A stretch of DNA of 64,000 nucleotides, from contig NZ_JAFBBG010000001.1 in NCBI RefSeq assembly GCF_016907055.1, positions 186,001-250,000 on the forward strand, written 5' to 3'. Below the pieces are notes generated by a model. It was given only the letters and a program-made list of their open reading frames with translations. It was not told the DNA's origin and ran no database searches. Both the position numbers and the translations under genes were made by a program. This DNA comes from Paracholeplasma morum (GTDB taxonomy: Bacteria > Bacillota_I > Bacilli_A > Acholeplasmatales > UBA5453). This document shows positions 23,507 through 50,935 of this stretch, in pieces (position 1 is the first letter of the stretch; every line of letters starts with the position of its first letter).

Positions 23507-23535
23507 ATTTTATCATTAGTCTTCGACTTTGTCAA
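23507..23535 (-). promoter_or_regulatory. Promoter of the rplK operon
   Basis: A perfect TTGACA (23530-23535), spacer of 17 and TAAAAT (23507-23512). The -35 element overlaps the last codons of the gene at 23516-23938. Confidence 0.85.
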
Positions 23536-23938
23536 CAACATTATTTGATGTTCCGCTTAACGACTCAATCTTATTGAAGAAGCGGTCGACGTTTATCGCA
23601 TGATATGGGTATTTATTACGCTTTAAAGAATAGTTAAACGCAACAAACCTTTCATCCTTCAAAATGACCTTCATATACCTCTCTTTGAAGTTGTATTTTC
23701 CCAGTTCAATTTCAATAATATCGCTATACTTAATTTCATAAAAATCACCTATGTAAGTAAGCTTTACTAAACCATCAAATGTATATATTTTAAATCCCAA
23801 ATCATCAAAGTCTAGTATTGCTTCTGGAAATCCCAAAATAATGTTTCCATCGTTGGGTAATATTCCTATTTTAAATGGATGATTAAGGTGTGTTTTTGTA
23901 GCTTCTTCTATTTGAATAATCATCTTGTCTATGTTCAT
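23516..23938 (-). CDS. Uncharacterised small protein, PH-like beta fold possible
   Basis: I do not recognise this 140-residue protein. It begins with an amphipathic helix (MNIDKMIIQIEEATKTHL) and then alternates short beta-like strands (FKIGILPNDGNIILGF, GFKIYTFDGLVKLTYI, MKVILKDERFVAFNY) before a C-terminal helix, a pattern seen in bacterial PH-like domains. It has no signal peptide or membrane segment. The ATG at 23938 follows AAGGAGG. It lies between nusG and rplK, where most Firmicutes have nothing, and shares a 75-base upstream region with the divergent catE-like gene, so it may respond to the same regulator. Confidence 0.6.
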   Translation of the reverse strand: MNIDKMIIQIEEATKTHLNHPFKIGILPNDGNIILGFPEAILDFDDLGFKIYTFDGLVKLTYIGDFYEIKYSDIIEIELGKYNFKERYMKVILKDERFVAFNYSLKRNKYPYHAINVDRFFNKIESLSGTSNNVVDKVED

Positions 23939-23961
23939 AAAAGCCTCCTTGAGCAAATGTT

Positions 23962-23990
23962 TTGATATTTCGATTTCGAACTATTATAAT
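23962..23990 (+). promoter_or_regulatory. Promoter of the catE-like gene with an embedded MhqR-type operator
   Basis: TTGATA (23962-23967), spacer of 17 and TATAAT (23985-23990). The spacer holds TTCGATTTCGAA (23969-23980), which differs by one base from the perfect palindrome TTCGAATTCGAA found in the same position in the mhqO-like promoter at 50.9 kb. Confidence 0.8.
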
Positions 23991-24013
23991 AAGTGGTGTA
24001 TAGAGGTGATACC

Positions 24014-24847
24014 ATGTCATTATACCATAATAATCAGGCGATTTATCCAAAATCAATCGCTTTAAACGTCAAGGATCTCAAAAAAATGGTCCAGTTCTAC
24101 AAAGATATCCTAGGATTTAAGTTACACGAATCAAAAGAAGGTTTTGCTAGTTTTACGGCTAATGGAAAAGATGTTCTATTAGAACTTTATCAAACAAACA
24201 GTGTTAGTACAAACGTTGCACTATACCATGTAGCCTATTTGTTCAATTCTAAAGAAGCTTTAGCTAGCATATTCAGACATATCTTAGTACAAAAGTACCC
24301 TATGACAGGTGGCGCAGACCACACTGTAAGTGATGCACTATACTTAGATGATCCAGAAGGCAACGGCATCGAGTTGTATTTTGACACACAGCCTGATGCT
24401 TGGGATGATATTGAAGCACATCCAGAAAGGCTTCAAAACTATCCATTCCCATATGATGAGTATTTACGTATGGCTAAAAAGTTTTACTCTATCGACTCTA
24501 ATACCATTATTGGTCATATACACTTACACACAATAAACTTAAAAGATGCAGTGAAGTTTTATGAAACGGTTTTTGGATACGATACGATTGCGAAAGTGCC
24601 ATCAGCATATTTCATGTCTAGTCAAAGATACCATCATCACATCGCATTAAACACTTGGCGTGTTCCAACCGTATTTGACGATAAGAATCTTGGGTTAAAA
24701 TACATTGTGCTTGAGACCGAAGCTAATGAGGTCAGAGAACAACTTCTTAACCGTATCAATCCTTTGGACAACGCTACTTCAAACAATGATGTAGTATTGT
24801 TCAAAGATGCTAACGGATATGCTTACAAGATCAAAACTCAAAAATAA
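24014..24847 (+). CDS. catE: CatE-like ring-cleaving dioxygenase (VOC family)
   Basis: The 277-residue protein has two VOC (glyoxalase/extradiol dioxygenase) halves, like Bacillus CatE, a catechol-2,3-dioxygenase. Shared features include SDALYLDDPEGNGIELYFD in the first half and IIGHIHLHTINLKDAVKFY plus HHHIALN in the second, which hold likely iron ligands. The ATG at 24014 follows AGAGGTGAT. It is one of only three plus-strand genes here, divergent from the 140-residue gene and convergent with nusG. The promoter carries an operator shared with the MhqR/MhqO locus. The likely role is removing quinones or catechols; the true substrate is unknown. Confidence 0.85.
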   Translation: MSLYHNNQAIYPKSIALNVKDLKKMVQFYKDILGFKLHESKEGFASFTANGKDVLLELYQTNSVSTNVALYHVAYLFNSKEALASIFRHILVQKYPMTGGADHTVSDALYLDDPEGNGIELYFDTQPDAWDDIEAHPERLQNYPFPYDEYLRMAKKFYSIDSNTIIGHIHLHTINLKDAVKFYETVFGYDTIAKVPSAYFMSSQRYHHHIALNTWRVPTVFDDKNLGLKYIVLETEANEVREQLLNRINPLDNATSNNDVVLFKDANGYAYKIKTQK

Positions 24848-48163: not shown

Positions 48164-48206
48164 TAATAATTGTTGCATTTAACTAGATTTATGCCCCATC
48201 TTTATG

Positions 48207-48212
48207 TATAAT
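48207..48212 (+). promoter_or_regulatory. -10 element of trxA-trxB
   Basis: TATAAT about 33 bases before the trxA ATG. The -35 position holds only TAGATT, so the promoter is weakly defined; TG lies directly before the -10. Confidence 0.45.
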
Positions 48213-49455: not shown

Positions 49456-49887
49456 TTATTCACAGCTACATTTACTAGCGGCTGTACCTAGTTTTTTCAG
49501 TAGTTCTTGTAGTGTTTTTTCTTCTGCCTCTGTTAGAACTTTTAGCACTTTTTTAATGTTTGCTTCATGAGCTGGATATACTTTATCCATCTTATTCTTA
49601 CCCTCATCGGTTAGTCTCAAGATGAAGCTTCGTTTGTCCTTAATAGATTTCTCTCTAACAATATAACCACGTTTTGCTAAGTTGTCTAGTACATAGGTCA
49701 TACTCGAATTTGCGATCAAAACTTTGTCCGTTACTTCTTGAACAGTAAGTTCACCTTTATGATAAAGGGCTTCAAGCGTTCCAAACTCACTGACATTTAA
49801 TCCATACTGTTCAATATCTTTTTTAATAATTCCTTCAAAACTGTTTTTAGCTCTGAATAGAATAGTAACTGTTTTTAAATCTCTCAT
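49456..49887 (-). CDS. MarR family regulator, MhqR-like
   Basis: The 143-residue winged-helix regulator has the MarR core (FGTLEALYHKGELTVQEV at about 37-54; RGYIVREKSIKDKRSFILRLTDEG at about 73-96). The C-terminus ends AASKCSCE; the two cysteines could sense quinones or thiol stress. Its ATG overlaps the stop of the dioxygenase gene (TAATG), as in Bacillus mhq-type units. The likely operator is TTCGAATTCGAA in the shared promoter and a near copy before the catE-like gene 27 kb away. Target sites are inferred from sequence identity between the two promoters and the known MhqR site type. Confidence 0.82.
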   Translation of the reverse strand: MRDLKTVTILFRAKNSFEGIIKKDIEQYGLNVSEFGTLEALYHKGELTVQEVTDKVLIANSSMTYVLDNLAKRGYIVREKSIKDKRSFILRLTDEGKNKMDKVYPAHEANIKKVLKVLTEAEEKTLQELLKKLGTAASKCSCE

Positions 49888-50873
49888 TAGAAATACTCCT
49901 TATTAAAGATTTTATCACTGCGTTTTGTATCAATTGGTCTTACAACACTTTCCACATAAGCACGGCGATTTCTAAATCTTGGTGGCAATGCTAACGTTTC
50001 ACCTAAGTTCTCTAGCGTTTCTTCATCGTCGATGAATCCTGGACCTTCTGTAGCAAACTCAAATAGAATTCCTTTATATAGTCTAGTGTATAAAGATTCG
50101 AAATAGAATCTATCCACATAACCAGAGTTTGGTGCGCCAAGTGCATTCAAGTAACCTTCCCAATCGGTTAAGGCAGCTTTATCTTTAACTCTGAATGCTA
50201 CGTGGTGAACAGATCCGAATCCTTGTTGGGCTTCTGGCATCATCAATTGATGCTCAATGATGACTCTACCGTTGTTTCCACCTTTACCCATTTCATATAA
50301 TGTATAAGGCTTCTCTTGAGCGATGACTCTCATGCCTAGGAATCTGCTTAACACACCATCCATTTTATCCACGTCTGCTACTCTAAAGAAAATTGGACCT
50401 AAACCCATTATCGCATATTCATCAGGTACTGGGCCTTTACGCCATGGGTGATTATCATATTCTACAGTATCTGTCTCATCTGAGAATATCGCATACGCTT
50501 GATCGTCAAAATCATTAAAGAACAGTACCTTCTTGCCAAACATGGTTTTGATTGGTTCATGAGGCACGTGGTAGTGATCCAAACGTTTAACCCAATAATT
50601 CAGTGCTTCATCTGTTAATACTCTAAAGCCAGTTCTCGAGATTTCATTCGTCCCTCTAACTGCTTTTCTAATCCCTCTAAAATCAAAGAAGGTCATATCA
50701 GTTCCAGCTTGCCCAATTTCATCGGCAAAGAATAAGTGGTAAGTATTAATATCATCTTGGTTAACTGTTTTCTTTACAAGTCTAATACCTAATACTCTTG
50801 TAAAAAAATCATAAATAAGTTTTGCGTCACTTGTAATTGCAGTAACGTGGTGAATACCATTTACTTGTAACAT
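49887..50873 (-). CDS. MhqO-like ring-cleaving dioxygenase (VOC family)
   Basis: The 328-residue protein is like Bacillus MhqO, a putative hydroquinone or catechol dioxygenase. Iron-ligand motifs are GIHHVTAIT at the start, FGSVHHVAFRVKD in the second half and ILFEFATEGPGF near residue 270. The pattern VKKTVNQDDINTYHLFFAD is typical. The ATG at 50873 is preferred: an in-frame ATG at 50891 would sit on the transcription start. It is co-transcribed with the MarR regulator. Substrate unknown. Confidence 0.87.
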   Translation of the reverse strand: MLQVNGIHHVTAITSDAKLIYDFFTRVLGIRLVKKTVNQDDINTYHLFFADEIGQAGTDMTFFDFRGIRKAVRGTNEISRTGFRVLTDEALNYWVKRLDHYHVPHEPIKTMFGKKVLFFNDFDDQAYAIFSDETDTVEYDNHPWRKGPVPDEYAIMGLGPIFFRVADVDKMDGVLSRFLGMRVIAQEKPYTLYEMGKGGNNGRVIIEHQLMMPEAQQGFGSVHHVAFRVKDKAALTDWEGYLNALGAPNSGYVDRFYFESLYTRLYKGILFEFATEGPGFIDDEETLENLGETLALPPRFRNRRAYVESVVRPIDTKRSDKIFNKEYF

Positions 50874-50896
50874 ATTAGTCACATCCTTCATTTACT

Positions 50897-50925
50897 ATTA
50901 TATTTCGAATTCGAATTATATTCAA
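50897..50925 (-). promoter_or_regulatory. Promoter of mhqO-marR with a perfect palindromic operator
   Basis: TTGAAT (50920-50925), spacer of 17 and TATAAT (50897-50902). The spacer holds the perfect 12-bp palindrome TTCGAATTCGAA (50904-50915), similar to the CGAATTCG core of the Bacillus MhqR site. Confidence 0.85.
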
Positions 50926-50935
50926 GACATTTGCT

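Follow-up and report, generated by a model that had tools for sequence, protein, structure and literature searches.

A candidate MhqR-type operator in the promoter of a CatE-like dioxygenase gene of Paracholeplasma morum, with a possible Spx layer

The window analyzed here, a 64,000-nucleotide stretch of the Paracholeplasma morum genome (positions 186,001 to 250,000 of contig NZ_JAFBBG010000001.1), codes for a CatE-like and an mhqO-like dioxygenase, each preceded by a candidate operator of the MhqR type. The relevant features are as follows.

23516..23938, minus strand: divergent conserved 140-aa protein, sharing an intergenic region with the CatE-like gene
23952..23958, plus strand: AGCAAAT element, candidate Spx/alpha-CTD box, with AGCA beginning 33 bp upstream of the -10 (-45 to -42)
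23962..23967, plus strand: -35 hexamer (TTGATA) of the CatE-like gene
23966..23983, plus strand: site 1, 9-9 bp MhqR-type candidate operator TATTTCGAT-TTCGAACTA, core at 23969-23980
23985..23990, plus strand: -10 hexamer (TATAAT) of the CatE-like gene
24014..24847, plus strand: CatE-like VOC ring-cleaving dioxygenase, 277 aa (ATG at 24014; the listed open reading frame begins at 23993)
49456..49887, minus strand: mhqR-like MarR repressor, 143 aa, best PDB match 9qdr
49887..50891, minus strand: mhqO-like ring-cleaving dioxygenase, 334 aa (the probable start is an internal ATG at 50873)
50897..50935, minus strand: mhqO-mhqR promoter (AGCA at 50935-50932, -35 TTGAAT at 50925-50920, -10 TATAAT at 50902-50897)
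50904..50915, minus strand: site 2, perfect palindrome TTCGAATTCGAA, MhqR-type candidate operator of mhqO-mhqR

An earlier note on this DNA had described both enzymes as ring-cleaving dioxygenases of the VOC family, and database searches agree, with a Pfam Glyoxalase match for the CatE-like protein (6.5e-21) and PDB matches for the mhqO-like protein to 1zsw (3.8e-68) and to Bacillus subtilis MhqO 3oaj (7.6e-54). The CatE-like protein is ∼34% identical to staphylococcal CatE2-type proteins with the His/Glu motifs conserved, and by sequence the predicted dioxygenase has the VOC fold, conserved His/Glu ligands, and length (about 270 to 300 aa) of the CatE type; its PDB search returned nothing beyond weak FosB matches. 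The divergent 140-aa protein adjoins catE in each of the six operator-bearing members of the genus and has many invariant residues. It matches no Pfam or NCBIfam family, its single-sequence AlphaFold model has a mean pLDDT of 35, and it may be a co-user of the site 1 operator.

The CatE-like promoter carries 11 of 12 consensus bases in its -35 and -10 hexamers, and the TTGATA-17-TATAAT arrangement with a site in the spacer, as described previously, is confirmed at 23962-23990. The site 1 core (TTCGATTTCGAA, 23969-23980) is an imperfect palindrome. The sites at the two dioxygenase genes had been reported to occupy the same place, which is nearly correct in that both lie in the spacer, but the site 1 12-mer begins 16 bp upstream of the -10 and that of site 2 begins 13 bp upstream, 3 bp nearer. 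The Staphylococcus aureus MhqR operator, TATCTCGAA-ATCGAAATA, is proven by gel shift (PMC6798810, in the available portion of the article). Read as its reverse complement, TAGTTCGAAATCGAAATA, site 1 agrees with this operator at 16 of 18 bases by visual count and shares its centre, so that the mismatched middle of site 1 does not speak against its being an operator.

The MarR protein encoded next to mhqO has 9qdr as its best PDB match (E 1.2e-29, the next match being at 1.1e-11), with 41% identity (alignment A1). This structure ("MarR family transcriptional regulator") is taken to be S. aureus MhqR (SaMhqR) from residue positions in PMC12893000, where the available text assigns DNA contacts to S65, S66, and the wing residues D88, K89, and R90, and the quinone pocket to F11, F39, E43, and H111. 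The counterparts of F39, E43, H111, S65, S66, Y69, D88, and R90 are invariant in A1, and that of K89 is nearly so. Numbered on the window protein, the DNA-contact residues S61, S62, D84, and R86 are invariant, K85 is nearly invariant, and the quinone-pocket counterparts F35, E39, and H107 are kept. V91 and Y92 differ (Ser, Phe). No Phe aligns with SaMhqR F11 (V7 in A1), the Phe of the window protein lying a helical turn further along, at position 11. By sequence, the mhqO-adjacent MarR gene is an MhqR orthologue.

MhqR orthologues (>100 bits) are present in 16 of 41 genomes. In relatives, mhqR lies within mhqO-mhqR-mhqD operons with the palindrome at the head, whereas four sister species have it as a single gene preceded by an imperfect copy. 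Of the 16 genomes with an MhqR orthologue, 14 contain the exact palindrome, compared with 3 of the 25 without one, although the P value of 2e-6 is only indicative, as the genomes are related. Genome G002 has four operator-like sites and no detected MhqR orthologue; its assembly is 85% complete, and this reflects either gene loss or a gap.

Within the window, the palindrome has two matches if one mismatch is allowed, where 0.23 ± 0.49 would be expected, and 3 of 100 shuffled windows contain at least two; with at most two mismatches, 5 are found against 5.16 expected. The earlier note had proposed a genome-wide search with one mismatch. The whole genome (1,556,252 bases) contains three exact palindromes, all no more than 70 bp upstream of genes, namely, those for mhqO(-mhqR), an MhqD-like esterase, and a luciferase-like (LLM) monooxygenase. 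The eight one-mismatch sites occur at about the rate of the reversed-pattern control (9 on each strand), and only site 1 is in a promoter, the other seven being inside reading frames. The one-mismatch class is not enriched, and a lone one-mismatch site carries no significance at the scale of the genome; what establishes site 1 is its promoter position and its conservation in orthologues. Two of the one-mismatch palindromes are 120 bp apart in the 471-aa frame of a secreted-looking protein (L006 and L007, G000 contig 2). This protein has a YGTH motif resembling that of perforin-like proteins.

The pattern TTCGAWWTCGAA occurs 35 times in seven genomes of the genus, compared with none for the reversed control. 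Exact copies of TTCGAATTCGAA are upstream of catE-like, mhqO, mhqD, LLM monooxygenase, or NADPH-FMN-reductase genes in 18 of 19 cases, the remaining one (L238, in G005) being inside a gene. Sites with one central change are upstream of such genes or of a nitroreductase gene in 7 of 13 cases, with five in genes and one uncertain, a monooxygenase-type site of G003 that lies close to the end of its contig and lacks a visible monooxygenase gene downstream (it is nonetheless among the 32 promoters considered below). None of the three TTCGATATCGAA control sites in the genus is upstream of a quinone or redox gene. Four sites (L220, L229, L234, and L223) were classed as upstream after reading of the proteins, as open reading frame starts were over-extended. 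We also note a monooxygenase gene in G005 (L080 and L240) that has two in-frame stops with its operator and AGCA box intact.

Each of the six genus members with the closely related catE-like gene carries the site upstream of it, and the palindrome is perfect in the five besides P. morum, whose CatE orthologues are 41 to 47% identical to the window protein. The site is absent at the CatE homologues of G005 and of eight genomes elsewhere in the order, outside the genus, so such control of catE would be a local feature. The MhqD-like protein (G000 contig 9) is homologous to MhqD, and its gene is operon-linked in relatives; its best NCBIfam match, NF047577, scores 177.5 bits, below the equivalog cutoff of 325. 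Within the genus, the palindrome is found at mhqO, mhqD, CatE-like, monooxygenase, FMN-reductase, and nitroreductase promoters. The small quinone or catechol regulon of the mhqO-linked MarR protein proposed in the earlier note is supported by the MhqR orthology, the co-occurrence of palindrome and repressor, and these genus promoters, but that account had missed two additional P. morum members, mhqD and the LLM monooxygenase gene, as well as the AGCA element of Spx type.

We consider it highly probable, from homology and conservation, that site 1 serves as an operator of the MhqR-type repressor encoded at 49456-49887, with an Spx layer that is less certain. That site 1 is simply a chance AT-rich near-palindrome within a plain sigma-A promoter might be suggested by the near-control rate of one-mismatch matches genome-wide, but a chance origin is ruled out by the conservation of the site in the same place in six of six genus orthologues with proteins so divergent, and we regard it as scarcely credible. 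A different regulator, such as another MarR paralogue, could also read the palindrome, as there are three further weak MarR matches in the genome, and G002 has operators in the company of no detected MhqR orthologue. This is improbable, however, in that no protein other than the mhqO-linked one is a close match to MhqR, the palindrome precedes mhqO(-mhqR-mhqD) operons in many species and co-occurs with MhqR, and the site is nearly identical to the known MhqR operator. Control of catE by the genome's HxlR (RrpB/YodB-like) regulator was also considered and set aside, as the HxlR gene is beside an FMN reductase gene on contig 3, and the catE promoter bears an MhqR-type site.

The AGCA element upstream of site 1 has a characteristic position. 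In 32 operator-bearing promoters in which the -10 was chosen blind, by core-promoter score alone, AGCA begins 33 bp upstream of the -10 in 22, and 25 have the GC core; these include orthologous promoters and are not independent, yet they represent different genes and three operator registers. Two promoters overlooked by the blind choice, G004_llm and G002_nitroR, were counted as misses in the 22 of 32, though both match AGCA-N29-TATAAT. Any AGCA offset besides 33 is seen once at most. The operator registers are -16 (catE and LLM), -13 (mhqO-mhqR), and -44 (mhqO-mhqD, mhqD, and FMN reductase), and AGCA is phased with the -10 and not with the operator. In a set of 80 named loci, the operator is near an mhq gene in 36 (40 sites), with AGCA at offset 33 at 11 of the 40 sites and at any other offset at one; in the Bacillales and staphylococcal loci, the operator is mostly placed differently and is without the AGCA box. 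Genome-wide, AGCA-N29-TATAAT occurs 69 times compared with 38 in a reversed control, a modest excess with several matches inside genes, and among the first 100 of 176 matches this AGCA/TATAAT gap is found 8 times, other gaps averaging 3.1.

In the B. subtilis trxB and nfrA promoters, AGCA at -45 to -42 is needed for activation by Spx and its GC is indispensable, as given in the available portion of PMC2801614. The P. morum genome encodes Spx (NF002459, 175.7 bits; cutoff, 123), with CSSC as its CxxC switch. It is possible, though less likely than not, that AGCA is instead an UP-element-like site or a site for some other activator, which bears only on the Spx layer; the first base of the element varies in relatives (AGCA, TGCA, and GGCA), as this would allow. 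Against this are the exact correspondence to the position of the trxB and nfrA Spx box, GC included, the presence of an Spx gene, and occurrence of the element at thioredoxin-reductase-like, glutathione peroxidase, MsrB-cluster, and DsbA-like promoters. A role as an Spx box is thus the reading that we carry forward.

AGCA-N29-TATAAT precedes genes of these four types (L297, L298, L307, L286, L290, L281, and L275), and these promoters of the genus are a candidate Spx regulon. It is also present in the promoter of an NADPH-FMN reductase gene divergent from that of an HxlR/RrpB-like regulator (L271:1491-2454, G000 contig 3), a locus in which a second redox repressor may be combined with the same AGCA box. 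The thioredoxin promoter (window positions 48174-48212) has TGCA at the same 33-bp distance upstream of its TATAAT, which may be a variant Spx-type box, and trxA and a thioredoxin-reductase-like gene are convergent to mhqR.

Most likely, given the strong homology and conservation, MhqR blocks polymerase until a quinone binds. Without quinone, an MhqR dimer on the spacer would exclude RNA polymerase, and filling of the MhqR pocket by a quinone or methylhydroquinone would release the repressor and allow the detoxifying enzymes to be made. With less certainty, AGCA at -45 would be read by Spx together with the alpha-CTD of RNA polymerase, and Spx, oxidized under the same stress, would recruit polymerase there. 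Full expression would then depend on the operator being free and on thiol (disulfide) stress at once, quinones having both effects. We infer such dual control by MhqR repression and Spx activation, the Spx part from box position and the presence of Spx.

This arrangement resembles the B. subtilis MhqR regulon (mhqNOP, mhqED, mhqA, and azoR2) in having a MarR repressor, a 9-9 operator with a TCGAA-TTCGA core, ring-cleaving dioxygenases, and an MhqD esterase; sister species also have counterparts of the nitroreductase and the FMN/quinone reductase. CatE of B. subtilis, in contrast, is under YodB/CatR, and S. aureus catE and catE2 belong to QsrR (both from the available portion of PMC6798810), whereas the CatE-like gene here bears an MhqR-type candidate operator. 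S. aureus mhqRED shares the closest solved repressor, 9qdr, and the operator with 16 of 18 bases in common with site 1, but MhqR there is described, in the accessible part of the source, as controlling only mhqRED from an operator covering -6 to +12; in P. morum and its relatives, the operators are in the spacer or at -44 and at several units. The trxB and nfrA promoters of B. subtilis share the AGCA position and an Spx protein, but the candidate Spx box here appears to be combined with an MhqR-type operator.

A MhqR regulon that recruited a CatE-like gene is apparently undescribed in mollicutes. Our search of openly available papers found none pairing MhqR with Mollicutes or Acholeplasma, or with Spx and AGCA. 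The single paper there that combines Spx with Mycoplasma and Acholeplasma is a 2016 promoter study of three mollicute species (PMC5138195), the available portion of which suggests SpxA as a stress regulator, reports no MarR/MhqR regulon, and does not mention MarR. We lean slightly toward a broader view, in which promoters for quinone detoxification in Acholeplasmatales, Izemoplasmatales, and Erysipelotrichaceae-like bacteria would be two-input gates, MhqR sensing quinones and Spx sensing thiol oxidation through AGCA at a constant spacing from the -10, with MhqR also acting as an anti-activator where the two overlap at -44, and in which MhqR of this genus would have taken over the CatE-like branch that is under YodB/CatR or QsrR in Bacilli. 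Loss of mhqR favors L-form growth of B. subtilis, according to the available text of PMC4510147, and we note that natural wall-less bacteria retain mhqR, unlike the L-forms helped by its loss. Regulation in the wall-less, genome-reduced mollicutes is poorly known, and this case supplies a concrete, testable regulon with operators, members, and a second candidate sensor.
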